Assembly (NCBI RefSeq): GCF_000444995.1
Contig: NC_022049.1
Span: 1 to 64,000, forward strand
DNA length: 64,000 nt
Direction of reading: 5' to 3'
Source: Paracoccus aminophilus JCM 7686
GTDB lineage: Bacteria; Pseudomonadota; Alphaproteobacteria; Rhodobacterales; Rhodobacteraceae
The position numbers and the translations under genes are program-made. The notes below the pieces were generated by a model that did no database searches, was not told the origin of the DNA, and saw only the letters and a program-made list of their open reading frames with translations. Position 1 is the stretch's first letter. The number at the start of each line of letters is the position of its first letter. Shown piece after piece: positions 1-17,480 of the stretch.

Positions 1-1161
1 CTAACTCACCTGCGCATTCTCGGCCCGGATCAAAGCCATCACCATCGGCCCCGGAGAGAACCCTCCGGCCTCCGCCTTATCGGTCAAAGCGCGCAAATAG
101 CCCCCGGGTCGCGAAATCTCGGTGACACGCTGAAGAATGCAGCACAGCACAATCGCCGCAGTTTCCGCCCCCATGATCTGACAGGCGCGCGCCCAGGCAT
201 CGGGACTGACCCCCAGCATCGGTCGCACTACATCGGCCACGGCCACAAGATCTCGCCAGGATCGGATACCATCCGGGGCATAGTCTCGAATGTCAGGCGC
301 CGCCTTAAGCACAATCCCCAGAGGCAAGGAGGTCGAAACCTCGCCGCCGCGCTCTTGCCTTTCTTGGCAAGGTTCAGATTCTAAGATTAGGGAGTTTGAA
401 TTCTGTTTGTGCCGCTCATATTCGCTGTCATTGGCGTGCAATTCTTCTGCAAATACCGGAATTTGGCTGCGAATGTCGTCGAACAGGCTATCAGCTTCCA
501 CGGCCATCCCTTCGATCATGTCCGCATCCAGCTTGCGCCGCAACTGCCGTTGCAAAGCTGCGAGCCGCAGATGGTAGCTCTCGACCGCCAAGGGTTGATG
601 CTCGGCCAGCCAGCCCAGAAGCTTCGCCCCATCGCGCAGACGCAGCACCACCGCCTCGCGCAGACGGCGCAGCGTTTGCGCAAGCGCGCGGGCCTCGGCC
701 GCTGCTGCTGCGATTTCGGGGCTGCGCACCAGCAGCGGGCGCAGGTCGAAGCCAAAGACCAGATCGAAGGCCCCGCCCGTGCGGCGCGTGGCATAGCGCT
801 TGCCGTTCGGGCTATCCCGGCGCAGGATCAGGCCTGCGCGCACCAGAGCGGCCAGATGGCGGCGCAGAGTGCTTTCCGCCATGCCATGGGCGCGATCCGA
901 AAGCGCCGCATTTGACGGAAAAACAATGAGCTTGTCGTCATCGGCGAGAATCTTGCCCGGATGAAAGCTCAACAGCGCCGAAAGCACCGCGAGATCGCGG
1001 TCGCTCACAGCGAACTGCAACCGCGCGGCCGTCAGCTCGCGCAGAAGCGCCCATTTGTCCGGGCTGGTCGAAGGCGCTTCCGCCTCGGCCAGGGCATGGG
1101 TTGCCAACAGGCCAGCCGTCACCGGCTGCCGCCCGAAAGGCGTCATGGAAATATGTCTCAT
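1..1161 (-). CDS. repC: Replication initiator RepC
   Basis: RepC starts replication of repABC plasmids. The 386-residue length and the N-terminal signature TPFGRQPVTAG (about residues 7-17) match the family. The stop codon TAG lies exactly at positions 1-3, so the gene is complete. It is the last gene of repA-repB-repC; the 175-bp gap from repB holds parS and an antisense RNA. In this family the origin lies inside repC, and here the region coding for about residues 240-270 is distinctly AT-richer than its surroundings. Start chosen at ATG 1161, giving MRHISMTPFG, the usual RepC beginning. Expression is probably limited by the antisense RNA made from the plus strand. Confidence 0.95.
   Translation of the reverse strand: MRHISMTPFGRQPVTAGLLATHALAEAEAPSTSPDKWALLRELTAARLQFAVSDRDLAVLSALLSFHPGKILADDDKLIVFPSNAALSDRAHGMAESTLRRHLAALVRAGLILRRDSPNGKRYATRRTGGAFDLVFGFDLRPLLVRSPEIAAAAAEARALAQTLRRLREAVVLRLRDGAKLLGWLAEHQPLAVESYHLRLAALQRQLRRKLDADMIEGMAVEADSLFDDIRSQIPVFAEELHANDSEYERHKQNSNSLILESEPCQERQERGGEVSTSLPLGIVLKAAPDIRDYAPDGIRSWRDLVAVADVVRPMLGVSPDAWARACQIMGAETAAIVLCCILQRVTEISRPGGYLRALTDKAEAGGFSPGPMVMALIRAENAQVS
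354..440. other. Candidate oriV inside repC (AT-rich island with inverted repeat)
   Basis: Within the GC-rich repC frame there is an AT-rich stretch at about 360-440. At its left edge is a perfect inverted repeat, CTTGCC (354-359) and GGCAAG (366-371), separated by a 6-bp T-rich spacer. Origins of repABC replicons are known to lie in an AT-rich part of repC. Assigning this stretch as the origin is an inference from composition and position. Confidence 0.5.
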
Positions 1162-1206
1162 CTGATGTCACGGGGCAAAAACTATCCGCCCGCCTGAACA
1201 GACGCT

Positions 1207-1222
1207 GTTGACAGCTGTCAAC
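1207..1222. promoter_or_regulatory. parS: parS centromere, 16-bp perfect palindrome
   Basis: GTTGACAGCTGTCAAC is a perfect palindrome and fits the repABC parS pattern GTTNNNNGCNNNNAAC. It lies between repB and repC, one of the usual parS positions. RepB (ParB type) should bind here. The left half also contains the TTGACA -35 hexamer of the antisense RNA promoter. Confidence 0.9.
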
Positions 1223-1237
1223 GAAAGCCGGTATCTT
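1208..1237 (+). promoter_or_regulatory. Promoter of the counter-transcribed RNA
   Basis: A consensus -35 TTGACA (1208-1213) is followed after 18 bp by TATCTT (1232-1237). It points against the repABC mRNA and would start RNA near 1244. The -35 lies inside parS, so RepB bound there could block this promoter; that coupling is an inference. Confidence 0.65.
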
Positions 1238-1243
1238 GCGAGT

Positions 1244-1297
1244 GCTAGATCGAAAGACCGGCCCTTCGGGATGTCATGTCCTGGAGGGCTTCTTTAT
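1244..1297 (+). ncRNA. Counter-transcribed RNA (incA-type) controlling repC
   Basis: repABC replicons encode a roughly 50-60 nt antisense RNA between repB and repC that represses repC expression. Here a promoter (1208-1237) and an intrinsic terminator (1261-1299) on the plus strand bracket an RNA of about 50-55 nt, antisense to the repC leader. The 5' end is estimated from promoter spacing. Confidence 0.7.
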
Positions 1298-1299
1298 TT
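1261..1299 (+). terminator. Intrinsic terminator of the antisense RNA
   Basis: An 11-bp stem including two G-U pairs (1261-1271 with 1279-1289) closes a 7-nt loop and is followed by a T-rich tail at 1290-1299. It ends the plus-strand antisense RNA close to the repB stop codon. Confidence 0.8.
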
Positions 1300-1336
1300 G
1301 TGCCGGGTCGTGCCTCCTGCTTGATAAACCTGCGTC

Positions 1337-2260
1337 TCACCCATCGGACTTAGCCTTGTTTTCCAGCCAGTTACGATGAATCTCGGGAAGCTGATCGGCC
1401 AGCCAATCGCCAAAGGCGCGGCCCTCTCCGCTCAGCTCGATAACCATTCTGCGCTTGCTCGCCCGCGCAGCACCGAAGGCCCGGCCACGGCTGTCACGCA
1501 AGGCGCGCGCCCCGGTGCTCGCCGCGCGCGGGGGCGCCAAGGCCGCAAAAGCCTGCTCGAAACGCTCATCCGAGCCGCCTGCGACCGCCGCTTCAATCGC
1601 CGCCGCAAGATCCGCGCCCTCGAGCCGCCGCGCCAGCGCAAGCCAGCGATCGCGGCCCACCGAGGGCGCCGAGCCGATTGCATAGACGAGCTCGGCGGGC
1701 AGGGTTTCGACCACGGTCAACATCCGCGACAGCACGGTTTTGTCGATCGCCAAAGCGTCGCAAATCACCTTGCGCTCATAGCCGGATTTCGCCATTTGCT
1801 GGGCAAACAGCGCCTTTTCGATAAAAGACAGGTCCTTGCGCGCCGAGTTTTCCTGACCCTGCGCAATCACCAGTTCACGGTCATCAAGCTGGCGCACCAT
1901 GGCCTTGACGGGCAGCTTCAGCGCCTTGAGCGCGGCGACCCGGCGGCGGCCATAGACGACCTCATAGCGGCCCTCGATATTCGGATGATGGCGCAAAAGC
2001 ACCGGCACCTGCTGGCCGTATTCGCTGATCGAGGCCTGCAACGCCAAACTGCCCGCCGGATCTTCATCCAGCCGGTCGCGCAGGCCCGCATTGTCGATCA
2101 GATCGGGCGGCACATCGAGAATCGCCCGCCGCTTGAGGTCGTCAATCCCGCGAGAGACCGCTCCGACCGCGCCACGGCCATAGCGCGGCGGTGCCGGATC
2201 GTCGGGCGCGGGCTCGACCGCGGCCTGCATCAGCCCTTTGAGAAGATCCTTGCGTGCCAT
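1337..2260 (-). CDS. repB: Plasmid partitioning protein RepB (ParB family)
   Basis: RepB is the ParB-type centromere-binding protein that works with RepA and binds parS. The 307-residue protein has the ParB box GRRR (about residues 104-107) and the ENSARKDLS segment (about 137-145), followed by a helix-turn-helix region. The start was taken as ATG 2260, which overlaps the repA stop in a TGATG junction; an in-frame GTG at 2263 is less likely. The overlap implies translational coupling with repA. Confidence 0.93.
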   Translation of the reverse strand: MARKDLLKGLMQAAVEPAPDDPAPPRYGRGAVGAVSRGIDDLKRRAILDVPPDLIDNAGLRDRLDEDPAGSLALQASISEYGQQVPVLLRHHPNIEGRYEVVYGRRRVAALKALKLPVKAMVRQLDDRELVIAQGQENSARKDLSFIEKALFAQQMAKSGYERKVICDALAIDKTVLSRMLTVVETLPAELVYAIGSAPSVGRDRWLALARRLEGADLAAAIEAAVAGGSDERFEQAFAALAPPRAASTGARALRDSRGRAFGAARASKRRMVIELSGEGRAFGDWLADQLPEIHRNWLENKAKSDG

Positions 2261-3450
2261 CACTCAGCCCCTTTCCGCCCCCAGGAGGACTGGATCAGCG
2301 CCTCGATCTCGCCATTGACGGCGTTGAGGCTTTCCATCGCGCGCTCGTAAGTCGTGCGGTTGAACGAGGCTTTTTCGACCTCGTAAAGCGTCTGTTTGGT
2401 GATGCCCGCATCCGAAATCGCGGTGGATTTCAGTACGGGATGGTTCAGCACATGATCGCCGAAGAGCGAGCGCATAAAGCTAACCATTTGATTTTGCGGT
2501 CCGTCTCCCGGCTCATAGCGGGTGACGACATAGCGCATCCAGTCGTAATTCATATCCGCTCCCGCATCCGCGACCACGCCCAGAAGATCCGAGGTCATCA
2601 GCAGGAACTGGCACATCGACATCACATCCAGCATCTGCGGATGGACCGTGACCAGGATCGACGTGGCCGCCGACAGCGCCGACATGGTCAGGAAACCAAG
2701 CTGCGGCGGGCAGTCGATCACCACGACGTCGTAATCTGCTTCAACCTCGGCGAGAGCGTCGCCAATCCGGGTAAAGAAAAACTTACCCGAGCGTTCGATG
2801 ATCGCGCGCGGCGTATCATGCTCGAATTCCATCAGCTCAAGGTTGCCGGGAATCAGATCGAGATTGGTGAAATAGGTCTTCTGAATGACCTCGCGGATCG
2901 GCACCGGCTCTTCATAGCGGATCGCGTCGTAAAGCGTGCCGCCGTCTTCGAGGTCGAACTCGGGCTGAACACCGTGCAGCGCCGAGAGGCTCGCCTGCGG
3001 GTCGAGGTCGATCGCGAGCACACGGTAGCCGTCAAGCGCGAGCTTTTGCGCCAGATGCGCCGCCGTCGTGGTCTTGCCCGAACCGCCCTTGAAGTTGATG
3101 ACGGTGATGACCTGAAGATGATCGCCCTCGCGCCGTCCCGGCAGGTAAGTGCCTGGAGTCTTTGCGCCTTTTTCCAGCATGACGCGCAAAGCCTGAATGT
3201 CGTCGGGGCTGTAATAGCGCCGCCCGCCCGCCCGGGTTTCCGGGCTCGGCCCCTTGCCTTCGAGGTCAAGCTTGCGCAGATAGGCATCCTTGACGCCCAG
3301 AAGATCCGCGACCTCGCCACTGGTGAATTTGCGCAGCTGCCGCCGGGCATCCGGCGGGAAAAGCTGCGCGCGATGCGCCTGCAGCCGACCGGACAAAGCC
3401 CGGGCGTGCTCGCCGACGAGCTTGTCGATGCGCGTTTTTGCCTGCATCAT
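2260..3450 (-). CDS. repA: Plasmid partitioning ATPase RepA (ParA family)
   Basis: RepA is the ParA-type ATPase that moves plasmid copies and represses its own operon. The 396-residue protein has an N-terminal winged-helix DNA-binding part (about residues 40-95), the deviant Walker A KGGSGKTTT (about 121-129) and a VIDCPP Walker B near residue 240. It is the first gene of repABC. Two ATG codons are in tandem at 3450 and 3447. The protein is full length with no sign of decay. Confidence 0.95.
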   Translation of the reverse strand: MMQAKTRIDKLVGEHARALSGRLQAHRAQLFPPDARRQLRKFTSGEVADLLGVKDAYLRKLDLEGKGPSPETRAGGRRYYSPDDIQALRVMLEKGAKTPGTYLPGRREGDHLQVITVINFKGGSGKTTTAAHLAQKLALDGYRVLAIDLDPQASLSALHGVQPEFDLEDGGTLYDAIRYEEPVPIREVIQKTYFTNLDLIPGNLELMEFEHDTPRAIIERSGKFFFTRIGDALAEVEADYDVVVIDCPPQLGFLTMSALSAATSILVTVHPQMLDVMSMCQFLLMTSDLLGVVADAGADMNYDWMRYVVTRYEPGDGPQNQMVSFMRSLFGDHVLNHPVLKSTAISDAGITKQTLYEVEKASFNRTTYERAMESLNAVNGEIEALIQSSWGRKGAE

Positions 3451-3847
3451 GCCCTCATGTGACGCGGTCAGTTGTTACGCTTTTGACCGTCTTATTCTGT
3501 TTGTTCCGTAATTAAATGCGCGAGAATTCCGATTCCCACAAGCATTATTTCCACTTACGGGGAATCCTTCAGGAAACGGCACCTGCATCTGCGCGCGAAA
3601 ACCCCGGCGACAGATTCCAAAGGCAGGGGCACGGCACAGCTTTGACGGCAGATTGATCTTCAAGTCACAAATAAATTACGCATAACGCGACTTTCTTGCC
3701 ACAGCTCGCCTGATCGGCGGCCAAATCCGGCGCCCGACTTGTTGACAAAAATACTAAACAAATCTTAACGGGCTGAAATTCCGGGAAACATCCGGGAGCT
3801 AGCCTCTTCGCCAGCAAGTTCCGCAAACCTGTGCGATGAGGACAGAT
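3451..3847. promoter_or_regulatory. Divergent intergenic region between repA and the TonB receptor
   Basis: About 400 bp without a convincing gene, less GC-rich than its neighbours, so promoters for both flanking operons should lie here. An inverted repeat CGGTCA (3465-3470) / TGACCG (3484-3489), 15 bp before repA, is a candidate RepA operator. A TTGACA at 3742-3747 could be the -35 of the receptor operon, but no good -10 follows at standard spacing. I found no clear iron-regulator box. A 62-codon frame at 3475-3663 has no supporting features. Confidence 0.4.
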
Positions 3848-6139
3848 ATGAGACTCCCCCCCCGCGCCGCCCTTTGGGCGACGACGATTCTGGCTTTGCC
3901 GATGAGCGGCATGGCTCTGGCCCAAGAGGCCAGCGCGCCGGCCGCTCCGCAAGAAAGTGCGATCAAGAATTCCGAAGACGGTGTCGTGACGCTCGACAAG
4001 GTCACGATCTACGCCACCCGCCAAAGCACCAATGTCAGCGACGCGCCGGCCTCGATCACAGTTGTCGAAGGTGCGGCGCTTGAGGCGCGCGGGCAGGACA
4101 ACCTGCAACAGATGACCCGCTATATTCCGGGCGTCACCGTCAGCCGTCAGACCTCGGCGACCGATCCTTTCGCGACCTTTGGCGGCGTCAATATCCGCGG
4201 CGTCGGCGGCAACCGGGTGCAGATGCTGATCGACGGCTCGCGCGTGGCCGAGCGCATCACCGATGGCACGCGCGACTATTTCGATTTCAATTTCATCAAA
4301 CAGGTCGATGTCGTCAAAGGCCCGTCCTCGGTGCTTTGGGGCTCGGATGCGCTTGGCGGCGTGGTCGCCTTCACCACGATCGACCCCGAGGATGTGCTGC
4401 AAGGGCAGGACCGCGCCGGGACCGGGCGGCTGTCCTACGATTCCCTCAACGGCGAAAGCGGGGTCTCGGCGGCCTTTGCGCAGCGCTTCAGCCCGGATCT
4501 GACCGCGCTTTTGGGGATCGCGCGCACCGATGCGCATGAGGCCAAGTTCCGCAAGGCGCGCGCCGATGGCGGCGTCGCGGGCTGCGAGCGCAATATCGAC
4601 TATGGCGCGCCGGGCTGTAACGAGCTCAACCCCGCCGATATTGCCGCGAACCGTCTGCTGGCGAAACTGGTCTGGACGCCGTCGAGCGAGCATCGTCTGG
4701 CCTTCACCGCGGACTTCCTGCAGCGCGACACCGATGTGCAATATAACGTGCTCAAGGGCCCGGTTTATTCCTCGATGACCGGCCTGCCGACGGGCGAAGT
4801 GAACTTCAACCACGACCGCAACCTCGAGGTTCGCCGTCAGCATTTCTCGCTGACCCATACCTGGACGCCGGGCTCGGGCTTTGTCGATGAGGTCCGCACC
4901 ACCTTCGCCTATACGCCCTATAGCTATAAGCGGACCGGCACCAAATGGTCGCGCAATGCCGCGGGCCAGAACGTCATCACCCGCGACCGACTGGATTACT
5001 CGGAGGATTTCTTCGAGCTCGACGTTCAGGCGACCTCGCGTTTCTCGACCGGCAGCGCCGAGCACGAGCTGACTTGGGGCTTTGACGGCGACCTGACCCA
5101 TACCGATTATGCGCGCGTCGACCGCGTCCAGAACCTCACCACCGGCACCGATGAGATCAAACGCGCGGGCGGCTTCAACTTCGCCAATTCGAAGACCCGT
5201 CGCGCCGATCTTTATGTGCAGGACAAGATTTCGCTCCTCAACGGCCAGCTTGAACTGACCCCGGGCCTGCGTTTCGCGAGCTACCGCATCGAGCCGAACC
5301 CGGACAAGGATTACATCCCCGTCATCGGCAAAGAGCCCAAAACCCGTTCGGACAGCAAGGTTCTGGGCAATTTCGGCGCGCTTTACCGCATCAACGACAC
5401 CTATAAGGTCTGGGCGAATTACGGTCAGGGCTTCAAGATGCCGACCGCGCAGCAGCTTTACACCTCGGTGCCGGGCGCGAGCTTTGACATGATCCCCGCG
5501 CCCGATCTGCGCCCGGAAGAGGTCAAAAGCTTCGAGCTGGGTCTGCGCCGCGAAACCGCGCAAAGCTATTTCGGCGTGACCGCCTTCCGCGCCGATTACA
5601 CCGACTTCATCCAGAGCTTCTGGAACCCGCCGGGAACCAATGTCTACACCTACCGCAACATCGGCAAGGTCAAGACCTGGGGGCTCGAGCTCGAAGGGCG
5701 CTATGATCTCGCCGACAACCTCAGCCTGACCGGCTCGGCCGCCTGGATGAAGGGGCGCCAGAAGGTCGATGAGAAATCCGAGGAAACCCCGCAGGATCTG
5801 CCGCCGCTGACCGCGACCTTGGGCCTGAGCTGGGAAGCGCGCCCCGATCTGACGCTCGACCTGATGGGCACGGTCGCCAGCCGCATCCGCGAAACCGCGA
5901 CGAAGAACAACTTCAAGGCGCCGGGTTATGGCGTGGTCGATGCCTATGCCAGCTGGAAAGTCACCGACACCGCCGTGCTGAACCTTGGCGTGAAGAACCT
6001 CTTCGACAAGCGCTATTTCTACGACAGCGCCTCGGGTTACTCGGTGACGCCGTCGCGGTCTGTCGGCGCGCAAAACCCGCTCGAGCTTCAGACCGCGCCG
6101 GGCCGCTTCTTCACGGCCTCGCTCGAGATGAAGTTCTAA
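3848..6139 (+). CDS. TonB-dependent outer-membrane receptor, haem/haemoglobin type
   Basis: A 763-residue outer-membrane receptor with a signal peptide (ending near ALAQEAS, about residue 26), a TonB-box-like segment TLDKVTIYA (about 46-54), a plug domain (about 45-170, with NIRGVGGNRVQ and VVKGPSSVLWGSDALGG) and a long beta barrel ending in the outer-membrane signature aromatic residue (MKF). The plug resembles the haemoglobin/transferrin/lactoferrin receptor family. ATG 3848 was chosen over ATG 3836 because GAGGA sits at the right distance upstream. It is first in a four-gene operon whose last two products resemble haem-handling proteins, so haem is the likely ligand. The ligand is inferred. 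Confidence 0.85.
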   Translation: MRLPPRAALWATTILALPMSGMALAQEASAPAAPQESAIKNSEDGVVTLDKVTIYATRQSTNVSDAPASITVVEGAALEARGQDNLQQMTRYIPGVTVSRQTSATDPFATFGGVNIRGVGGNRVQMLIDGSRVAERITDGTRDYFDFNFIKQVDVVKGPSSVLWGSDALGGVVAFTTIDPEDVLQGQDRAGTGRLSYDSLNGESGVSAAFAQRFSPDLTALLGIARTDAHEAKFRKARADGGVAGCERNIDYGAPGCNELNPADIAANRLLAKLVWTPSSEHRLAFTADFLQRDTDVQYNVLKGPVYSSMTGLPTGEVNFNHDRNLEVRRQHFSLTHTWTPGSGFVDEVRTTFAYTPYSYKRTGTKWSRNAAGQNVITRDRLDYSEDFFELDVQATSRFSTGSAEHELTWGFDGDLTHTDYARVDRVQNLTTGTDEIKRAGGFNFANSKTRRADLYVQDKISLLNGQLELTPGLRFASYRIEPNPDKDYIPVIGKEPKTRSDSKVLGNFGALYRINDTYKVWANYGQGFKMPTAQQLYTSVPGASFDMIPAPDLRPEEVKSFELGLRRETAQSYFGVTAFRADYTDFIQSFWNPPGTNVYTYRNIGKVKTWGLELEGRYDLADNLSLTGSAAWMKGRQKVDEKSEETPQDLPPLTATLGLSWEARPDLTLDLMGTVASRIRETATKNNFKAPGYGVVDAYASWKVTDTAVLNLGVKNLFDKRYFYDSASGYSVTPSRSVGAQNPLELQTAPGRFFTASLEMKF

Positions 6140-6143
6140 GCCG

Positions 6144-7964
6144 ATGAGCACCCGCATGGCTGACGCCACCACCGGCGGGGCAGGAGAGGGGGGGCGCGTG
6201 CCAGAGCGCGCCCCTGACCGCCCGAGCCGACCTTCGAGCCAGCGCCCCACTTTGCGCCTGACGCTGAGACGCGCCGCCCGGCTGACCCGGGCGGCCTGCC
6301 TTGGTCCGGGGGCGTGGAAGGCCGGGCTCTTGTTTGCCACGATCCTGTCTTTAAGCTTCGTCGAGATCTGGATCTCGCTGCGCCAGATCGACTGGTATCG
6401 CGATTTCTACAATGCGCTGGAAAAGGTCGATGCGGCGGCGGCAGTCCATCAGATCGGCATTTTCTGCATCCTGACCGCCTCGGGGGTCGTGACCTTCCTG
6501 ATTGGCGATTATCTGCAAAAGGCGTTGCAATTGCGGCTGCGCACGCGGCTGACCGTGCAGGCGATCGACCATTGGCTCGGCAACCGCGCCTATTGGCTGC
6601 TGCGTCCGGGCTTTGGCGCGACCCCGGTCGAGAACCCCGACCAGCGCGTCGCCGAAGATTGCCGCCAATTCGTTGAAAAAATTCTGGAATATTCGCTTGA
6701 ACTGATTTCGAAAGTCGTGGCGCTGGTCTCTTATGTGGCGCTTCTGTGGTCGCTGTCGAGCTTTGTTCTGGCGATCACGGTCTTTGGCTTCGGCATCGAG
6801 ATTCCGCGCTATATGGTCTGGCTCGCGCCAATCTATGTCGGGCTGGCCTCGCTGGTCATCCATCTTGGCGGGCGCGCGCTCAAGCGGGTCTATTTCACCC
6901 GAGAGCGCGCCGAGGCCGATTTCCGCCATGCGCTGATCCAGATCCGCGCCAGCGCCGATCTCGTCGCCCAGACCCAAGGCGAGGCCGCCGAGAAGCGCCG
7001 CCTTGATCAGCGTTTTGGCCAGATCGAGCTGAACTGGCGCAGGCTGATGCGGCGCGAATTCCTGTTCTACCTCTTCCACCGCCCCTATCAGACCACGATC
7101 CTGCGCGTGCCGACCTTCTTCGCGCTGCCCGCTTATCTCGCCGGAGCGGTGACGCTTGGCGGCATGATGCAGCTCGCCAATGCCTTTGGCAGCGTCACCC
7201 AGACGCTAAGCTGGTTCATCTTCCGCTACCGCGCGCTCGCGGAATTCGTCGCGGTTTGCGAGCGTCTGGACGGGCTCATGCAAAACGCCCGCGCGCCCGA
7301 GCCTCTGCCCGGCGCCGCGCAAAAGATCGACCGCGTGGCTTCGGCGGATGGTTGGCTGCGGCTCGAGGGGCTGCGGCTTTCGACCCCCGATGGCCGCTGG
7401 CTTGATCCGACGCCGGATTATGCCTTGCGCCCCGGCGCGCGGCTGTGGATCGCGGGCGGCTCGGGCCAGGGCAAGACGACGCTTCTGTCGGCGGTTTCGG
7501 GTCTCTGGATCTGGGGCGAGGGCCGGATCGAGGCGCCCGCGGGAAAATTCGCCTTCCTGCCCGCAGGCGCGCCGGTGCTGGCCGAAACCATCCGCGCCGC
7601 CGCCTGCCATCCCGAGGACCCCGCCACGCATGACCCCAAGCGCCTGCACCGCGTGCTCTCGCGGCTCGGGCTTGGGCATCGGCTGGACCCGTGCCTGCTT
7701 GAAACCTCGCTCAGCGGGCTCTCGATGGGCGAGCGTCAGCGGCTTGGCCTTGCCCGCGCGGTGATGCTGCGCCCCGATTGGCTGGTGCTCGACGAGGCGA
7801 CCGCCGCGCTCGATCCAATGACCGAGGCCGACCTTCTGGGCTGGCTCGCCGCCGAGCTGCCCGACACCACCATCATCATGGTCGCCCATCGCCGCCCGAC
7901 CGGGCTGCGGCTGGATGACACGCTTCATATCGGACAGACCGATCCTGAAAGGAAAACCGCATGA
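6144..7964 (+). CDS. ABC transporter, fused membrane and ATPase domains (SbmA/BacA-like, ABCD family)
   Basis: A 606-residue single-chain transporter. Residues about 60-350 form an SbmA/BacA-like (ABC_membrane_2) transmembrane region, including the conserved WRxFYNAL-type motif (here WYRDFYNAL). The C-terminal ATPase has Walker A GGSGQGKTT (about 438-446), signature LSMGERQ (about 524-530), Walker B LVLDEATAALD (about 547-557) and the H-loop VAHR. The first 45 residues are a polar Pro/Gly-rich extension. Relatives include YddA and mycobacterial Rv1819c, which take up hydrophilic compounds such as cobalamin. It starts 4 bp after the receptor and overlaps the next gene by ATGA, suggesting it carries the receptor's cargo across the inner membrane in place of a HmuTUV importer. 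Confidence 0.85.
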   Translation: MSTRMADATTGGAGEGGRVPERAPDRPSRPSSQRPTLRLTLRRAARLTRAACLGPGAWKAGLLFATILSLSFVEIWISLRQIDWYRDFYNALEKVDAAAAVHQIGIFCILTASGVVTFLIGDYLQKALQLRLRTRLTVQAIDHWLGNRAYWLLRPGFGATPVENPDQRVAEDCRQFVEKILEYSLELISKVVALVSYVALLWSLSSFVLAITVFGFGIEIPRYMVWLAPIYVGLASLVIHLGGRALKRVYFTRERAEADFRHALIQIRASADLVAQTQGEAAEKRRLDQRFGQIELNWRRLMRREFLFYLFHRPYQTTILRVPTFFALPAYLAGAVTLGGMMQLANAFGSVTQTLSWFIFRYRALAEFVAVCERLDGLMQNARAPEPLPGAAQKIDRVASADGWLRLEGLRLSTPDGRWLDPTPDYALRPGARLWIAGGSGQGKTTLLSAVSGLWIWGEGRIEAPAGKFAFLPAGAPVLAETIRAAACHPEDPATHDPKRLHRVLSRLGLGHRLDPCLLETSLSGLSMGERQRLGLARAVMLRPDWLVLDEATAALDPMTEADLLGWLAAELPDTTIIMVAHRRPTGLRLDDTLHIGQTDPERKTA

Positions 7965-8665
7965 CCACGCAAACCCTTGAGCGCGCAAAGATTTCCGGCG
8001 CAACCCCGGCCGAGGTGCTCGCCCGCCTGCCCGCGATTGGCCGCCTGATGGTCATCGTGCGCACCGAAGGCACCACGCATGAGCGCATCGGCGCGGTCGA
8101 GGCCGTGACCCGCGATGGTGATGCCGTCATCATCTCGGGCGACTGCCACGATTCCCGCATCGACACCGGCGCGCTCGCCTCGGTGCTGATCGACCGCACT
8201 TCCGTCATGCGCGACAAGGTCTATCCGCGCCTCGAATTCCGCGACGCTGCGGGCGAGCTCGTCGTTTCGGTCGTCGGCATGGAAGGGGTCGAGCCCTTTG
8301 ACGCGGCGCTTGCCGATTTCGCCGTGGTCGCCGAAGCACCCGAGCCGAAAGAAGCGGCAAGCAGCGACCCCCGCCCCGAGCTTGACCCCGCCGATCCCGC
8401 GCTCGCGCCTTTCGAGGCTTTGCGCGACAGCGGCGCGGAAGTCGCGATCCGCAATGACCGCGCGGGCGTAGGCCAGGAATGGAAGGGCGTTGTCGCCGAG
8501 ATCAAGCCGGTCATGGGCTTTGTCAATGTGATGACCAAGGACTTCCACCTCCACCTTGAAGGCGGCTCGGTCGCCAGCTGGCAAGAGGCACCGCGCGCGC
8601 GCATCGCGATTGGCCAAAGCGGCCAGCCGACCGGCCTCACCCTCATCTCGGACGCTTTCGCATGA
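7961..8665 (+). CDS. HemS/HmuS-like haem-handling protein, short form
   Basis: A 234-residue cytoplasmic protein without signal or membrane segments. Two stretches resemble the halves of HemS/HmuS proteins: IGRLMVIVRTEGTTHERIGAV (about residues 23-43; HmuS has a similar LGxVMxLTRNExxVHEKxG) and GFVNVMTKDFHLHLEGG (about 186-202; HmuS has FNVLxxDFNLHL). It is about two thirds the length of classical HemS (roughly 345 residues) and has an acidic, Pro-rich linker in the middle. It overlaps both neighbours through ATGA junctions. Function in haem storage, transfer or breakdown is inferred; the similarity is weak and needs a profile search. Confidence 0.55.
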   Translation: MTTQTLERAKISGATPAEVLARLPAIGRLMVIVRTEGTTHERIGAVEAVTRDGDAVIISGDCHDSRIDTGALASVLIDRTSVMRDKVYPRLEFRDAAGELVVSVVGMEGVEPFDAALADFAVVAEAPEPKEAASSDPRPELDPADPALAPFEALRDSGAEVAIRNDRAGVGQEWKGVVAEIKPVMGFVNVMTKDFHLHLEGGSVASWQEAPRARIAIGQSGQPTGLTLISDAFA

Positions 8666-9498
8666 GCGAGCCTTATACCCCCTGGTTCCTGCCCGCCGAG
8701 CAGCAGCCCGCGACCCATCCCCAGCTCATGGGTCGCCTTGCCGGCGCCGAGGTCGTGCTTTTGGGCGAGCGTCACGATCAGGCCGCCCATCACCGCTGGC
8801 AGCTTCACGTCGCGGCGGGGCTCGCCGCCCATCGCCCGATCGTCATGGGCTTCGAGATGTTCCCGGCCCGGCTCGATCAGGTGCTGCACTCCTGGGTTTT
8901 CGGCAAGCTTGACGAGGATATTTTCCTTGAGCGCTGCGAATGGGCCAATGTCTGGGGCTTCCCGGCCGAGCTTTACATGCCGATCTTCCGCTTTTGCCGC
9001 GAGATGAAGATCCCGATGGTCGGGCTGAACTGCCGCCGCGAGCTCGTGCGCGAGGTCGGCGCGGGCGGCTGGCAAAGCGTGCCCGAGGAAAACCGCGAAG
9101 GGCTGACCCCCGCGCGGCCCTCCTCCGAGGCCTATCGCCGCTTCATCTTCGAGCTGACCGGCGGCGGCGCGCCCGGCCGCAAGGTGACTTCGGCCGAGGA
9201 TCCGGGCTTTGACCGTTTCGTGCGCGCGCAAGAGGTCTGGGATCGCGCCTTCGCCACCCGCATCCGCAATGCGGTGTGCCGTCCGGGTAAGCCTCTGGTC
9301 GTCGGCATCATCGGCATGGGCCATCTGCAATGGGGCGGCGGCGTGCCGTGGCAGCTTGAGGATTTCGGCATCCATGACGTGCGCGTGTTGATCCCGCAGG
9401 GCGAAAGCCAACCGATGCTGGCCGCAGGTGCCGCCGATGCGGTTTTCCGTCTGCCCGAAACTGAGACCGAAACCGAGGCCGAACTCTCCGACGCCTGA
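8662..9498 (+). CDS. ChaN-like haem-binding family protein (PF04187)
   Basis: A 278-residue protein of the ChaN/Cofac_haem_bdg family: LLGERHDQAAHHRWQ (about residues 33-47), the FEMFPAR segment (about 66-72) and the late GMGHLQWG segment (about 219-226) fit the family. ChaN of Campylobacter is an iron-regulated lipoprotein that binds haem. This protein has no signal peptide or lipobox, so it appears cytoplasmic. It overlaps the HemS-like gene by ATGA and ends the operon. The C-terminus is a low-complexity acidic tail. Confidence 0.75.
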   Translation: MSEPYTPWFLPAEQQPATHPQLMGRLAGAEVVLLGERHDQAAHHRWQLHVAAGLAAHRPIVMGFEMFPARLDQVLHSWVFGKLDEDIFLERCEWANVWGFPAELYMPIFRFCREMKIPMVGLNCRRELVREVGAGGWQSVPEENREGLTPARPSSEAYRRFIFELTGGGAPGRKVTSAEDPGFDRFVRAQEVWDRAFATRIRNAVCRPGKPLVVGIIGMGHLQWGGGVPWQLEDFGIHDVRVLIPQGESQPMLAAGAADAVFRLPETETETEAELSDA

Positions 9499-11858: not shown

Positions 11859-12635
11859 TCAATGGCCCGCGGGTTTCTTCTCGCCGGCACGGACCGCGAA
11901 AGGCAGGATGTTTTCGCGCGGCGGCAGCGGGCAGACCGCGAAATCGGTGAAGGCGCAGGGCGGGCTGAAGGCCTTGTTGAAGTCCAAGACCACCTTGTCG
12001 CCTTGAACCTCACCGATCAGAAAGCGCGCCGCGCCATAGGTCTCCGGCCCCGAGGTCTTGTCGCGGATGACAAACATCGGCTTGCCGAGTTTCCAATGGG
12101 TCGGCAGCAAGGTGACCTCATGCCCGTCATGGCTAAAGCGCGCCTGATGGGTCAGCTCGACCGAAGTCGCGATCCCCGCGACCGTGTCAATGCCAAGCGA
12201 TTTTGGCGCGTCGAGCTTGGACCACTCGGCCTCGATCCGCCAGGCGGGGTCGATGGCATAGCTGTCGATGCCGGGAAATTCGGTGCGGGCGGGGGCAAGC
12301 GTGTCCCTGACGCGCAAGGCATACTGCCCCTCGATCGAGGTCGCCTCAAGCAACAGATCCGCGACCTTCAGCCGCGGCGGATTGTCGGGATAGGGCGCAA
12401 AATCGCGCGGGCCGGTCCCGTCATCAAAGCTTGCCTTGCCATCCGCGGCAAGATCCAGCACGCCGAGATGCGCAGGCCCGGCCGAGATGACCACATCGTT
12501 CTCGGCGCTTGTGCCGACCGTCAGCCGACCGGGCGAGATTTCGACGCGGTCGGTCAGATCGAGCCAGCCATCCTCGGCGGTCAGCGCGGCAAGACGCTCG
12601 GCGCGCCAATCGGTGATGTCACGTTCATAGCTCAT
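11859..12635 (-). CDS. DUF1684 domain-containing protein
   Basis: A 258-residue protein with the DUF1684 hallmarks near the C-terminus: ETYGAARFLIGE, then DFNKAFSPPCAFTDFAVCPLPP, then an AGEKK end. No signal peptide. It overlaps the upstream ATPase gene by 4 bp and closes the SBP-permease-ATPase operon. The family has no agreed function. Its place after a metallophore/peptide-type importer is the only clue, perhaps processing of the imported compound. Confidence 0.85.
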   Translation of the reverse strand: MSYERDITDWRAERLAALTAEDGWLDLTDRVEISPGRLTVGTSAENDVVISAGPAHLGVLDLAADGKASFDDGTGPRDFAPYPDNPPRLKVADLLLEATSIEGQYALRVRDTLAPARTEFPGIDSYAIDPAWRIEAEWSKLDAPKSLGIDTVAGIATSVELTHQARFSHDGHEVTLLPTHWKLGKPMFVIRDKTSGPETYGAARFLIGEVQGDKVVLDFNKAFSPPCAFTDFAVCPLPPRENILPFAVRAGEKKPAGH

Positions 12636-13399
12636 GCGGTTTGTCCTTCATGCGGTTCCGGCAGTTTCAACAGGCTGGCCAGAAGCCTTTGGGTATAGGG
12701 ATGCTGGGGCGCGCGCAGGATCTCGCGCGTCGCGCCCGCCTCGACGATGCGGCCCTTTTGCAAGACGACCATCTGCGGGCACAGTGCGGCGACAATCGCG
12801 ATGTCATGCGAGACGAGCACCAGCGTCAGCTGACGCGCGTGCTCTGCCAGAAGGTCAATCACCCGCACCCGGGTCGAGAGATCGAGCGCCGAGACCGGCT
12901 CGTCGGCAATCAAGACGCGCGGCTGGGCGATCAAGGCGCGGGCAATGGCGATGCGCTGGCGCTGGCCGCCGGAAAAGGCGCGGGGGTAGCGGTCCAAGCT
13001 ATCCGCGGGCAGGCCAACGGCGGCGAGCACGCGGGCGACTTCGGCGGCGCTGTCACCGGGCAGGTTCAGCGCGCCATGCGGCTCTGCGATGATGCGCCCG
13101 ACCTTCATGCGCGGATCAAGCGAGGTATAGGGGTCCTGGAACACCGGCTGCACGAAGCGGCGATGCGCGGCCATCCGGGCGCGCGAGCCCAGATCAAGCG
13201 GGCTGCCATCGGCCAGAAGCCTGCCCGATGTCGGCGCGGCGAGCCCGAGAAGCAGGCGCAGCAGCGTCGATTTGCCCGAGCCGCTTTCGCCCAGAATCCC
13301 GAGGCTTTGGCCCTCTTCCAGCCGCAGCGAAACGTCATGCAACACGGTCGAGCGGCGGTCATAGCCGTAAGAGACATTCTCCAGCGCAAACAGGCTCAT
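12632..13399 (-). CDS. ABC transporter ATP-binding protein (DppF/NikE-like)
   Basis: A 255-residue ATPase of the peptide/nickel/opine class. Walker A GESGSGKSTLLRLLLG (about residues 37-52), signature FSGGQRQRIAIARAL (about 142-156), Walker B VLIADEPVSALD, then a switch VSHDIA. It overlaps the partner ATPase gene by 4 bp. With the other ATPase it should energise the two permeases encoded upstream. Confidence 0.92.
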   Translation of the reverse strand: MSLFALENVSYGYDRRSTVLHDVSLRLEEGQSLGILGESGSGKSTLLRLLLGLAAPTSGRLLADGSPLDLGSRARMAAHRRFVQPVFQDPYTSLDPRMKVGRIIAEPHGALNLPGDSAAEVARVLAAVGLPADSLDRYPRAFSGGQRQRIAIARALIAQPRVLIADEPVSALDLSTRVRVIDLLAEHARQLTLVLVSHDIAIVAALCPQMVVLQKGRIVEAGATREILRAPQHPYTQRLLASLLKLPEPHEGQTA

Positions 13400-14208
13400 G
13401 GCAGTTCATCTCCCGCCAAAGCGGCCTCCAACCGTCGCGCCGCACCGACCAGCGCCTTGGTATATTCATGCGCGGGCCGGGTGAAGACGCGGCGCGCCGG
13501 GCCTTCCTCGACCACATCGCCCTGCCGCATCACGATCACCCGGTCGGTGATCCGCGCCACCACCGGAAGATCGTGACTGATGAAGAGAAGCGCCAGACCC
13601 TCGGCCTTCACGAGCCCGTCAAGGAGGTCGAGCACCTCGGCTTGCGTCGTGACGTCAAGCGCGGTCGTCGGCTCATCGGCGATCAAGAGGCGCGGCCCGC
13701 AGGCGAGCGCCATGGCAATCGCAATGCGCTGACGCTGCCCGCCCGAGACCTCGTGCGGGAAGGCGGCAAGGATACGCTCAGGCTCGGCAATCGCCACGCG
13801 GTCAAGCCATTGCAACTGCTCGGCTTTCAGCGCGCTCGCGGTCAGGGCGCGGCCCTCGCGCGCCGCGCGGCGGCGGATCGGTTCGGCCAGCTGCCGCCCC
13901 AGCCGCATCAGGGGATCCAGCGCCGAGCGCGGGTCTTGGAACACGACCGAAGCCACCGCGCCACGGAGCGGCACAAGGCGGCGGTCGGGCTGGCCCACGA
14001 CCTCTTGCCCGCCAAGCAGCACCGAGCCCGAGGCGCGCAGCCCCGTCGCCAAAAGCCCGACAACCGACATCGCCGTCAGCGATTTGCCAGAGCCGCTTTC
14101 GCCAACCAGCCCCAGCTGCTCACCGGGTTCAAGGGTGAAGCTGACGCCATGGACCAGCTCTTTTGCGGCGCTCGCAACCCGCAAATCGCGCAGGGTCAAA
14201 AGGCTCAT
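13396..14208 (-). CDS. ABC transporter ATP-binding protein (DppD/NikD-like)
   Basis: A 270-residue ATPase: Walker A GESGSGKSLTAMSVVGLL (about residues 36-53), signature VSGGQRQRIAIAMALA (about 153-168), Walker B LLIADEPTTALDV, switch ISHDLP. It overlaps both neighbours by 4 bp. Together with the DppF-like protein it forms the heterodimeric motor of a family-5 solute importer. Confidence 0.92.
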   Translation of the reverse strand: MSLLTLRDLRVASAAKELVHGVSFTLEPGEQLGLVGESGSGKSLTAMSVVGLLATGLRASGSVLLGGQEVVGQPDRRLVPLRGAVASVVFQDPRSALDPLMRLGRQLAEPIRRRAAREGRALTASALKAEQLQWLDRVAIAEPERILAAFPHEVSGGQRQRIAIAMALACGPRLLIADEPTTALDVTTQAEVLDLLDGLVKAEGLALLFISHDLPVVARITDRVIVMRQGDVVEEGPARRVFTRPAHEYTKALVGAARRLEAALAGDELP

Positions 14209-15014
14209 GCCGCGCTCCTTTCCGGGTCAAGCAGATCGCGCAGCCCATCGGCGAGAAAGTTGATGCCAAGGACCAGCAGCACCAGTGCAATGCCGGGCGC
14301 AATCACCCCGATCGGCGCGGCAAAGACCGTCGATTGCGCCTGTTGCAGAAGCTGGCCCCAAGAGGCATTGGGCGGCGGCGCGCCAAGGCCGAGATAGGAG
14401 AGCGACGCCTCGGCAATCACCGCAAGGCCGAATTGCAGCGCAATCGCGACCAGCACGGTCGGCGCGATATTCGGGAGAATATGGCTCAGCACGATCCGCC
14501 CCCAGCCGACGCCCGAACAGCGCGCGGCGGTGATGAAATCCTGCGCCAGCACGCGCTTGGTCAGGATACGCACCAGCCGCGCAATGATCGCCGACATGGC
14601 AAGGCCAATCGCCAGGATCGCGGTGCCAAGGCTCGCGCCATCGCTCGCGGCCACGACCAGCATGGCAAGAAGCAGCGTCGGGAAAGCGATGAGAATATCG
14701 AGCGTCGCGGCCAAAGCATCATCGGCGCCGCGCCGGGCAAAGGCCGCGAGCACGCCAAGCGTCGTGCCGATCACGCCGCCCAAAGCCACCGCACCCACGC
14801 CGACGGTCAGCGCGATCCGCGCCCCGATCATCACTTGGGTGAAATAGTCGCGGCCGAGCCGGTCGGTCCCGGCCCAATGCTCCCATGACGGCGGCTTCAG
14901 CCGTCCGCCCGCCATCGCGGTCGGGTCGTAAGGCAGCCAGACCAGCGTCAGAAGCGCGACGGCGACATTGATCCCGACGAGCAAAATCCCGATCCAGAGG
15001 GTCAGCCGCTTCAT
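14205..15014 (-). CDS. ABC transporter permease (DppC/NikC-like)
   Basis: A 269-residue inner-membrane permease. Hydrophobic first segment, the DPTAMAGGRLKPPSWEHWAGTD-type pre-loop characteristic of DppC proteins (LGTDxLGRD; here AGTDRLGRDYFTQ), then five further membrane segments and the cytoplasmic coupling motif around EASLSYLGLGAPPP. Start set at ATG 15014, which overlaps the DppB-like stop (ATGA); the frame stays open much further upstream but that is not coding. Confidence 0.92.
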   Translation of the reverse strand: MKRLTLWIGILLVGINVAVALLTLVWLPYDPTAMAGGRLKPPSWEHWAGTDRLGRDYFTQVMIGARIALTVGVGAVALGGVIGTTLGVLAAFARRGADDALAATLDILIAFPTLLLAMLVVAASDGASLGTAILAIGLAMSAIIARLVRILTKRVLAQDFITAARCSGVGWGRIVLSHILPNIAPTVLVAIALQFGLAVIAEASLSYLGLGAPPPNASWGQLLQQAQSTVFAAPIGVIAPGIALVLLVLGINFLADGLRDLLDPERSAA

Positions 15015-15970
15015 GCCTCGCCCCCCTTGTCGCGCAGGCGCGGGTCGATCAGGCGCTGGACCACATCGGCGGCAAAACCGATCAGCAGAACCAGCAGGGT
15101 CGAGATCAAAAGCACGCCCTGCACGCTCGGATAATCGCGCTGCTGGATGCCCAAAAGCAGCATCGAGCCCAGACCCGGCAGCGCAAAGACCCGCTCGACC
15201 ACCACCGCGCCCAAAAGCGTCGAGGCAAGCTCGATCCCAAGGATCGAGATCACCGGCACGCTTGCGTTGCGGATGCCGTGGCGGATGAGCGCCTGCGGAT
15301 AGCTCGCCCCCAAGGCGCGGGCATTGCGCAGATAATCCGCGCCCAAGACATCCAGCACCGCCGCGCGGACATAGCGCAAAAGCGAGGCCGACATGACCAA
15401 AGCCACGGTGACGACCGGCAGGATCAGCGCGCGAAACGCCTCGCCAAAGGTCGCCCAGCCCTTGATCGGAAAGCCCGAGGCCGGCAGCAAGCGCCATTTC
15501 ACCGCGACGATCCACACGAGCATGATCCCGATCCAGAAGACCGGCACGGCAATCCCGAATTGCGACACCGCCGAGATCAGCGCGCCATACCAGCGATGCG
15601 ATTTGACCGCCGCAATGATGCCCAAAGGCACGGCAATCAGGATCGCGAGCAGGAAGGCCGCGAAGGTCAAGGGCAGCGTGACCGTCAGCCGCGCGCCAAT
15701 CTCGGGCAGGACCGGGGCGTTCGAGACGAAAGACGTGCCCAGATTGAAGCGGGCGAGATCGGACAGGAAGATGCCCAGTTGGATCAGCAATGGCTGGTCG
15801 CTGCCGACCTCGGCACGCGCCGCCGCGATCTGGGCATCATCGGCCCCGACCGACAGCAGGGCCGCCGCTGGATCCCCCGGCAAGAGCCGCAAGAGCACAA
15901 AGAGAACCAGCCCTGCCGCGACAAGCGACAGGGCCAGCACGAAGGTCCGGCGCAGAAGATAGCGACCCAT
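15011..15970 (-). CDS. ABC transporter permease (DppB/NikB-like)
   Basis: A 319-residue permease with the canonical start MGRYLLRRTFVLALSL and the LLPGDPA motif (about residues 29-35) that marks DppB-type proteins. About six membrane segments, and the coupling-helix region around VVVERVFALPGLGSMLL. It follows the solute-binding protein gene by 16 bp and overlaps the DppC-like gene. Confidence 0.93.
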   Translation of the reverse strand: MGRYLLRRTFVLALSLVAAGLVLFVLLRLLPGDPAAALLSVGADDAQIAAARAEVGSDQPLLIQLGIFLSDLARFNLGTSFVSNAPVLPEIGARLTVTLPLTFAAFLLAILIAVPLGIIAAVKSHRWYGALISAVSQFGIAVPVFWIGIMLVWIVAVKWRLLPASGFPIKGWATFGEAFRALILPVVTVALVMSASLLRYVRAAVLDVLGADYLRNARALGASYPQALIRHGIRNASVPVISILGIELASTLLGAVVVERVFALPGLGSMLLLGIQQRDYPSVQGVLLISTLLVLLIGFAADVVQRLIDPRLRDKGGEA

Positions 15971-15986
15971 TCACCCTCTCAGATGA

Positions 15987-17480
15987 TTATTCCGACTTGG
16001 TAATGCCGCGCAGGAAGAACTGCGCATTCAAACCATTGACCGGATAATGCGCCACCTTGGTCGAAGAGACCACCAGCTGCGGATAAAGATAAAGCCAATT
16101 CGACGCAGCATCCTCGGCGATCAGCTTGTTGGCCTCGCGCAGCTTTGCCGCCTGTTCCTCGTCGGTATCCGAGGTCTCGGCCGCATTGATCAGCTCGGTC
16201 ACTTTCGGATTGTCATAGCCCCAGTAGAAATCGGGGTTGCCGTAGAAGACGATGTCGCGGTGATTGACATGCTCTTGCAACGTCGCCTGGAAATCCTTGG
16301 CCTGATAGACCTTGGTGTACCATTCGTTCGCGGTGATGACGTGGATATTCACCGTGACGCCCACCTTGGCGAGCTCGGCTTTCAGGAACTCGGCCACGAT
16401 CGGATGGGGATCGTAATTCGGGGTCTCAAGCGTGAAGGCAAAGCCTTTCTCGAAGCCCGCCTCTTTCAAAAGCTCCTTGGCGCTTGCCGGATCATAGGCA
16501 TCGACCGAGGTCAGGTCCTCATACCAGGGATCGGTCGGCGGCACGAAGGAACCGAGCACCGTGCCCCGGTCGCCCCAGATCGCCTCGAGCAGCTTCTTCT
16601 TGTCGACGGCGCGGGCCAGGGCCTTGCGCACCTTCACATCATTGAAGGGCGCGACGCGGTCGTTATAGGCCATGATCTCCTTGGTGGTCGATTTCCCCTC
16701 GGCGATGGTGAAGGCCGTGGGATCTTCGAACAAAGCCAAAGCATCGGGGCTCTGGACCGAGGTGATGACATCGACCGCATTGGTCAACAGCGCATTGTTG
16801 AGCGCCGAGGCATCGGTGAAATAGCTGAACGTCGCCCCACCATTCGCCGGTTTCGCGCCCCAGTAAGCGTCAAACGCCTCGAGCGACAAAGCCGAGCCGC
16901 GCTTCCAATCAGCGAGCTTATAAGGCCCGGTGCCATCTTCCTTGCCGGTGATGTCGCCCGCCTTGTCGCTGACGATCCAGACGTAGCTCAGGTTATAGGG
17001 CAGCGAGATCGACTTCGCCTTCAGCTTGATGACCACGGTCAGATCATCAGGCGTCTCGATCGCCTCGATCCCGGCAAGGCTCTTCTTGCGCGAGGATTTC
17101 GACGCCTCCGCCACCACGCGCTCGATCGAATATTTCACATCCGCCGAGGTCAGCGCCGCGCCCGAGTGAAACTTCACATTGGGCTGCAGCTTGAACGTAT
17201 GGGTGAGCCCGTCCGCGGACACGCTGTGCTCGGCGGCCAAAGCGGGCGCGACCGAGCCATCATCATTCAGCCGGTAAAGCGCCTCATAGACGTTGTCGTT
17301 AAAGGCCTCGTTGATGCCCTGACCGGCACCGGCGGTATTGTCGAGGTTCTGGGGCTCGTAAAGCGAGCCGATGCGGATGATCGCCGCCGGATCATCGGCC
17401 GCGAGCACCGGAGCCGCGCCCGCGATCAGCGCGGCAAAGGCCACGCCAAGAGCGCGCGAAAATGTTGATGAAGAAGCCAT
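15987..17480 (-). CDS. ABC transporter substrate-binding protein, family 5
   Basis: A 497-residue periplasmic binding protein with a Sec signal peptide (cleaved after APVLA, about residue 27). The family-5 features are present: the IRIGSLYEPQNLDNT strand, LYEALYRLNDDGSVAPALA, VKFHSGAALTSADVKYSIERV and the late VRKALARAVDKKKL segment. It is the first gene of the importer. The ligand cannot be read from sequence; the upstream siderophore-interacting protein suggests a metallophore, but oligopeptides remain possible. Confidence 0.9.
   Translation of the reverse strand: MASSSTFSRALGVAFAALIAGAAPVLAADDPAAIIRIGSLYEPQNLDNTAGAGQGINEAFNDNVYEALYRLNDDGSVAPALAAEHSVSADGLTHTFKLQPNVKFHSGAALTSADVKYSIERVVAEASKSSRKKSLAGIEAIETPDDLTVVIKLKAKSISLPYNLSYVWIVSDKAGDITGKEDGTGPYKLADWKRGSALSLEAFDAYWGAKPANGGATFSYFTDASALNNALLTNAVDVITSVQSPDALALFEDPTAFTIAEGKSTTKEIMAYNDRVAPFNDVKVRKALARAVDKKKLLEAIWGDRGTVLGSFVPPTDPWYEDLTSVDAYDPASAKELLKEAGFEKGFAFTLETPNYDPHPIVAEFLKAELAKVGVTVNIHVITANEWYTKVYQAKDFQATLQEHVNHRDIVFYGNPDFYWGYDNPKVTELINAAETSDTDEEQAAKLREANKLIAEDAASNWLYLYPQLVVSSTKVAHYPVNGLNAQFFLRGITKSE

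Follow-up and report, generated by a model that had tools for sequence, protein, structure and literature searches.

A four-gene operon of Paracoccus aminophilus that pairs a haem-class TonB receptor with an SbmA/ABCD-type ABC protein: a candidate haem-uptake module

A four-gene operon and its recurrence

The window analysed here, the whole stretch of 64,000 nucleotides at positions 1 to 64,000 of contig NC_022049.1 of Paracoccus aminophilus JCM 7686, carries at 3836-9498 four plus-strand open reading frames (ORFs) that form one operon and encode a TonB-dependent receptor, a fused ATP-binding cassette (ABC) protein of the SbmA/BacA kind, a HemS-like protein and a ChaN-like protein. An earlier note, made from the sequence of the window alone, had described these genes as a single unit, with a gap of 4 bp at one junction and ATGA overlaps at the two others, and had proposed that they may import haem or a metal complex by an SbmA/BacA/ABCD-type transporter instead of HmuTUV. 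The ORF coordinates bear out the layout: the TAA of the receptor gene ends at 6139 and the ATG of the ABC gene stands at 6144, leaving a 4-bp gap, and the ABC/HemS-like and HemS-like/ChaN-like junctions are both 4-base ATGA overlaps. The receptor ORF is likewise real, but position 3848, which had been given as its start, is the second in-frame ATG and the ORF opens at 3836. Profile searches of all four proteins, which the same note had suggested as a check, recovered the expected Pfam families (PF06472/PF05992, PF05171 and PF04187). The features are as follows.

3741..3759, plus strand: iron-box-like promoter element GTTGACAAAAATACTAAAC, found as a de novo palindromic motif, 76 bp before the receptor ORF start
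3836..6139, plus strand: TonB-dependent receptor, haem/haemoglobin class, 767 amino acids (TIGR01785/TIGR01786, PF07715/PF00593)
6144..7964, plus strand: fused SbmA/BacA (ABCD-type) membrane domain and ABC ATPase, 606 amino acids (PF06472, PF05992, PF00005)
7961..8665, plus strand: compact HemS-like protein, 234 amino acids (PF05171, profile, predicted fold)
8662..9498, plus strand: ChaN-like protein, 278 amino acids (PF04187, profile, predicted fold)

The genome collection was scanned with an alignment of the ABC protein and the best 80 of 553 relatives were taken, giving 81 rows with the window. In the tree of these 81 proteins, 38 rows (the window and 37 loci, hereafter the module rows) are set apart from the other 43 (the sister loci) by a branch with a Shimodaira-Hasegawa-like approximate likelihood ratio (SH-aLRT) value of 100; as the 38 had been picked by score and neighbourhood before the tree was made, the tree confirms the grouping and is not its discovery. 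In 37 of the 38 a TonB receptor gene precedes the ABC gene on its strand (36 by phmmer and one, L054, at a contig edge, by Pfam), and in the remaining locus, L046, a receptor that passes TIGR01785 lies on the opposite strand instead. The HemS-like and the ChaN-like genes are each present in 29 module rows, one or both of them in 34, and all four genes occur together in 24; some absences may be due to contig ends, as in L038, where 667 bases are left. Among the sister loci, neither a HemS-like nor a ChaN-like gene was found in the fetched stretches, which reach at least 4 kb on both sides in 24 of the 43, and a receptor match of any kind was seen at L076 only, weak and on the other strand. We therefore rejected a chance neighbourhood, with a receptor upstream in 37 of 38 module rows against nearly none in the 43 sister loci. 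The order of the genes varies (receptor-HemS-ABC, receptor-HemS-ChaN-ABC, receptor-ChaN-ABC, or with the HemS-like gene divergent) while the set stays together, so that the association survives rearrangement, and its recurrence in many genera is more than chance would give.

The module is distributed sporadically, in Paracoccaceae, Roseobacteraceae, Neomegalonema, several families of Hyphomicrobiales, Sneathiella, a metagenome-assembled genome (MAG) of Azoarcus, and Gilliamella. In a survey of the family Rhodobacteraceae, the ABC protein was found in 13 of 394 sampled genomes, which is a lower bound because three candidates per genome were scored (E <= 1e-90). This neighbourhood survey, another check put forward in the earlier note, showed the four-gene set to recur: the stretch fetched, a short one, holds the full set of four in 11 of the 13 carriers, the window's own genome included, and L031 and L035 are incomplete. 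The same gene set is also carried by a plasmid of Pannonibacter phragmitetus and a plasmid of Rhizobium, where the products are annotated as a receptor, an 'SbmA/BacA-like family transporter', a 'hypothetical protein' (two in Rhizobium) and a 'ChaN family lipoprotein'.

Several loci differ in what accompanies the receptor and the ABC gene. In the two Gilliamella loci (L070 and L071; Gammaproteobacteria), receptor and ABC genes are followed by a HutZ-like gene, without HemS-like and ChaN-like genes; the two HutZ-like proteins score 143 and 149 bits on TIGR04110 (7e-42 and 1e-43), under its curated cut-off of 225. A PNPOx-type gene lies near the operon at L051 and a gene weakly similar to HugZ/HutZ near that at L054. 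A BLAST cluster of downstream genes spans L037, L039, L041 and L048, in which those of L037 and L041 encode siderophore-interacting proteins according to Pfam and that of L039 has no Pfam match.

One module locus, L052 (JAHVJD010000002.1), stands in an assembly titled Nocardioides marinus; its module is of Roseobacter type, its ABC protein falls among those of Roseobacteraceae, and the assembly is probably contaminated or mislabelled.

The four proteins and the upstream motif

The window receptor (Pfam domains PF07715/PF00593) scores 386.5 bits on the NCBIfam model TIGR01785 (cut-off 316.85) and 369.1 bits on TIGR01786 (cut-off 323.75), and all seven module receptors that were scanned, the window's and 6 of the 36 others, pass both. 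Two controls, HmuR of the same genome and the L046 receptor, pass TIGR01785 only, and four control receptors of other kinds reach only 91-160 bits against the TIGR01785 cut-off of 316.85: 160 and 145 for two that best match the B12 model, 91 for a siderophore-like one and 146 for one that is unassigned. The scanned module receptors thus group with haem receptors and not with non-haem ones, an outcome that the earlier note had named as counter-evidence. The nearest solved relative is PhuR (8the; 226 bits, the runner-up having 88). We tried and rejected a cobalamin receptor, the window protein scoring 117 bits on the B12 model, whose cut-off is 599.7; that model stays far under its cut-off in all seven scanned receptors, and on the PqqU model the window receptor has 82 bits against a cut-off of 1200. 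Two cysteines, C250 and C261, are invariant across the 36 aligned receptors (without L046, and without L054, which has no phmmer match), and the N-terminus is signal-like as judged by eye.

The ABC protein belongs to the ABCD/SbmA class, as had been proposed, its Pfam domains (PF06472 with 125 bits, PF05992 with 97 and PF00005 with 64) agreeing with the matches of its profile to solved structures: 6tqe, which we take to be Rv1819c, with 357 bits, 'ABC transporter D family member 1' with 250 and ABCD4 with 167. Residues of the ATPase motifs, presumably those of Walker A and B, the signature and the H-loop, are invariant in the 24 aligned rows. The start position is uncertain, most of the 23 aligned relatives beginning about 30 codons later. 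YddA of Escherichia coli is about 31% identical to the window protein. A relative of 852 amino acids in Sulfitobacter sp. CW3 (P0039), the only ChaN-bearing one among the 120 listed of 401 ABC relatives, has a ChaN domain fused behind the ATPase domain, which implies that this ChaN is cytosolic; such a fusion offers a handle on the role of ChaN proteins.

The HemS-like protein matches PF05171 with 54 bits (cut-off 24) and PF06228 with 37 (cut-off 25), and its profile matches HemS in two collinear stretches, at 41-186 and 228-295, skipping HemS 187-227. Its AlphaFold model has a mean predicted local distance difference test (pLDDT) value of 94, and Foldseek pairs this model with ChuS, HemS and PhuS at query template-modelling scores (TMq) of 0.72-0.75 and a root-mean-square deviation (rmsd) of 8-10, a value which suggests that the relative placement of the two halves may differ. 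The similarity to HemS claimed earlier for this short protein thus survives both profile and fold tests, but the protein holds two shortened HemS halves and not one. In an alignment to HmuS of the same genome there is a gap across the TDTHQF region, and His40 is invariant in all 19 rows, HemS having a His there too. Relatives are 223-258 amino acids long and mostly named 'hypothetical protein' (120 listed of 436). A search of 149 genomes of the family gave strong matches in four, the own genome included, and weak ones in three; a single-sequence search, too weak for the purpose, gave 97 pattern-matching contig stretches, none of them confirmed.

The ChaN-like protein has 198.6 bits on PF04187, over the gathering score of that family, and its profile matches 2g5g, Campylobacter jejuni ChaN (named 'putative lipoprotein'), with 45.5 bits; a search with the single sequence matched no solved structure, so that the profile was needed. 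Foldseek with the AlphaFold model (pLDDT 90) places 2g5g first (TMq 0.73, 18% identity in the structural match), with EreC and further proteins sharing this fold next. All 16 rows have G35, E36, H38, D39, E65 and H221, and this GE-x-HD motif and the further E and H align with those of C. jejuni ChaN. The latter is an outer-membrane lipoprotein. In the 16 module N-termini no lipobox is apparent: in 15 the first 35 residues are free of Cys, and that of L060 has one at position 32, outside a lipobox context. With neither lipobox nor signal peptide apparent, the ChaN-like proteins are probably cytosolic, although a hydropathy score does not cleanly separate their N-termini from those of the receptors.

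Upstream of the operon, a palindrome-constrained Gibbs search over 36 upstream regions (those of L046 and L054 left out) found the motif gtTGActaTaAtagTCAac, with a total score of 502 against 337-342 in three pair-shuffled sets, the palindrome being forced and the shuffled sets searched less hard (2 starts of 50 rounds against 5 of 70). A test of the spacer, independent of the Gibbs model and its forced palindrome, counted TGA-N9-TCA in 26 of the 36 regions, in 24 of them within 200 bp, whereas 300 first-order shuffles gave 2.4 on average and at most 8, and spacers of 5-8 and 10-13 gave 0-6. The window site at 3741-3759 has the top position weight matrix (PWM) score in the 64 kb (17.2, the next 13.9), the window being one of the 36 training rows, and a similar-looking site lies in the hmuR-hmuS gap of the same genome (L004:9924; PWM 10.6, third in the 18-kb stretch). 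The published RirA motif is TGA-(N9)-TCA (PMC8822346), and the Iron-Rhodo-box of Rhodobacteraceae, a 19-bp palindrome similar to the RirA motif, is an IscR target in R. sphaeroides (PMC4618611). From the upstream motif we infer that the operon is regulated by iron. The TTGAC half-site also resembles a -35 box; a scan with the sigma-70 consensus found no promoter-like site before the operon.

Transport route and ligand

The receptor class, the iron motif, the cytosolic partners and the replacement of these by a HutZ-like gene in Gilliamella lead us to infer import, and haem as what is imported. On balance we consider it probable that the module takes up haem or an iron tetrapyrrole like it, as a self-contained system under the control of iron. 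The ligand would cross the outer membrane through the TonB receptor and the inner membrane through the SbmA/ABCD-type protein, probably a homodimer, which would take it directly from the periplasm without a dedicated binding protein; the compact HemS-like protein would receive it in the cytosol, where the ChaN-like protein may bind or process it and so release the iron. The absence of a periplasmic binding protein from the operon, noted earlier, was borne out: none is among the four products by Pfam, and none was seen as a recurrent neighbour in the module neighbourhoods. HmuT-like profile matches do occur in L037, L038, L045, L049 and L051, apart from the operon, and matches to the HmuU profile in module loci likewise stand away from it.

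The canonical haem genes bear on this most directly. On contig C1 of the own genome (L004, 6105-12101) lies a canonical hmuR with hmuSTUV, of which HmuS, HmuU and HmuR were identified by search and HmuT and HmuV by eye in the translations. HmuT and PF05171 were searched for in 28 carriers of the 37 named module loci, and 25 of these have an HmuT match elsewhere in the genome. The three without one at 1e-15 are Roseovarius halotolerans (L045), the Nocardioides-titled contig and a Devosia MAG. The cleanest carrier with neither an HmuT nor a PF05171 match is R. halotolerans, PF05171 missing even its own module HemS-like protein, so that this result speaks only to canonical HemS; an iterated HmuT-profile match at L045:562-1515, beside a B12-like receptor, was not counted as HmuT. 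The comparison with genomes that lack hmuTUV, proposed in the earlier note, therefore turned out both ways, three carriers having no HmuT match and most having one: the module is usually an additional route and not a replacement. An intact hmuRSTUV that fully accounts for haem use had also been named as counter-evidence; the set is present in the own genome, which bears this point out in part.

Several observations weigh against the uptake of haem by this route. Haem need not be the cargo of the ABC protein, since the own genome has hmuRSTUV and 25 of the 28 searched carriers have an HmuT match. The HemS-like and the ChaN-like genes are each missing in 9 of the 38 module rows. Other haem receptors carry a His between the FKMPT and NPNL-type boxes, and no conserved His stands there in the 36 aligned module receptors; PhuR uses a His-Tyr motif (PMC12670364). 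The axial haem ligand of HemS is His196 of helix 7 (PMC6018153), which falls inside the unmatched HemS 187-227, so that the axial-His segment is absent from the HemS-like protein. The window's iron-box site is a degenerate TTGAC-N9-GTCAA, with TGA-N9-TAA in place of TCA and a degenerate right half. At L037 a separate binding-protein transporter of siderophore/B12 kind begins on the same strand 1.2 kb beyond the operon, and at L051 one with a B12-like receptor lies 1.8 kb downstream.

Because the ligand segment of HemS is lost and the same cell usually has hmuTUV as well, a related ligand, for instance haem peptides, is conceivable. With the same architecture, the module could carry peptides that bear haem (fragments of haem c), metal tetrapyrroles other than haem, or corrinoids, and the ChaN-like protein, a relative of hydrolases of the EreC/Tiki fold, would process them. 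HmuT being kept in most carriers, the module should add something, and the lack of a conserved receptor His between the boxes is in keeping with this, as are the broad cavity of this transporter class, the carriage of peptides by SbmA/BacA and the structure record of ABCD4, which names it a cobalamin transporter. E36, H38, E65 and H221, in 16 of 16 ChaN-like rows, and the EreC-fold matches would suit a processing step; these catalytic-looking residues are, however, also found in the haem-binding C. jejuni ChaN, so that hydrolysis is not implied. The lost HemS ligands may moreover have substitutes, for example the invariant His40, the receptors score in the haem class with the B12 model far under its cut-off, and in Gilliamella the HutZ-like partner speaks for plain haem. 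We hold such a ligand to be rather doubtful.

It is improbable, in our judgement, that the receptor feeds periplasmic haem to HmuTUV while the ABC protein exports excess or toxic porphyrin and the HemS-like and ChaN-like proteins are cytosolic haem buffers, even though an HmuT match in 25 of 28 carriers would allow it. The nearest solved relatives of the ABC protein, 6tqe and ABCD4, are held to be importers; an iron-starvation-type motif suits uptake better than detoxification; and at least one isolate carrier, R. halotolerans, has no HmuT match at 1e-15. Deletion of yddA in E. coli lowers extracellular and raises intracellular uroporphyrin (PMC11943725), which supports porphyrin handling but, by analogy, suggests efflux and not influx, and so also belongs with the points against uptake; in a tolC-deleted background, by contrast, the yddA deletion adds no further intracellular rise (PMC11943725).

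Highly improbable is a Fus-like import of protein, in which a small haem protein would enter by the receptor and its cofactor, once released, would be carried by the ABC protein. Published Fus operons do pair a TonB receptor with FusD, a YddA homologue (PMC5095587), and some related clusters lack the FusC protease (PMC6793856); but the window operon encodes no protease or TonB-like gene among its four products, none stood out among the recurrent neighbours, only some of which were identified, and the receptor matches haem models, has PhuR as its best solved relative and stays far under the PqqU cut-off.

If the module does take up haem or a haem-like tetrapyrrole, it may, we suggest tentatively, represent a further Gram-negative inner-membrane haem route, in which an ABCD-type importer made of one polypeptide would be handed haem or haem peptides directly by a TonB receptor of its own, with no periplasmic binding protein between them, and would pass them to a cytosolic ChaN-type receiver docked on its ATPase domain or, as in Sulfitobacter, joined to that domain by fusion. 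In the inner-membrane haem import described so far, for example that by BhuUV-BhuT (PMC5136619), the ABC importer is of type II (BtuCD-type) and works with a haem-binding protein of the periplasm, and haem uptake in roseobacters is described as hmuR, hmuS and hmuTUV, the available text not containing the word 'SbmA' (PMC5225302). Some haem users depart from this scheme: in Stenotrophomonas maltophilia, according to a section heading, the HmuTUV homologues take no part in the acquisition of hemin (PMC9241770). We found no description of the four-gene module in the open-licence literature of PubMed Central (PMC), judged by titles and the openings of abstracts, and the available part of PMC8007024 does not treat it.

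Compared with HmuRSTUV and PhuRSTUV, the module shares a haem-class TonB receptor, with PhuR as its nearest solved relative, and a HemS-type protein. It differs in having no HmuT and no BtuCD-type HmuUV, these being replaced by an SbmA/ABCD-type ABC protein, in a shortened HemS and an added ChaN-like protein, and in that the canonical set stands at another locus of the same genome. Its best reading is as an architectural sibling of the Fus (FusA/FusD) systems: in these and in PqqL-YddB-YddA, too, a YddA-type fused ABC protein goes with a TonB receptor, and the available text names no binding protein (PMC5095587). Unlike FusA-FusB-FusC-FusD, the window operon has neither the M16 protease FusC nor the TonB-like FusB, its receptor is of the haem class and its partners are HemS-like and ChaN-like. 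The ABC protein falls in the superfamily of Rv1819c, ABCD4 and SbmA/BacA, with 6tqe as its best solved match, and is distinguished by its linkage to a haem-class outer-membrane receptor and to haem-type cytosolic proteins; in this way the module suggests a likely cofactor ligand for transporters of the YddA/FusD type, which are poorly understood. With C. jejuni ChaN (2g5g) the ChaN-like protein shares the PF04187 domain, the fold, GE-x-HD and the E and H residues, and it differs in the absence of an apparent lipobox (16 rows), the fusion to the ATPase in P0039 and an identity of only 18%. The HemS-like protein has the two-repeat fold of HemS, ChuS and PhuS with collinear halves, as against 234 amino acids in place of about 345 and the absence of the axial-His segment. 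As a conserved module in one operon that offers another route for haem, it makes the question testable in a laboratory strain.

Genes adjoining the operon

At the start of the contig (C5), the operon is adjoined by a repABC-type plasmid replication module, at 1-3450 on the minus strand, with repC (PF03428/PF11800), repB (PF07506) and a parA-type ATPase that has a MerR-like N-terminus. On its other side, at 12632-17480 on the minus strand, lies a look-alike of an oligopeptide-type ABC transporter, with an SBP_bac_5 binding protein identified by Pfam at 15987-17480 and, recognised by eye only, two permease-looking and two ATPase-looking ORFs beside it.

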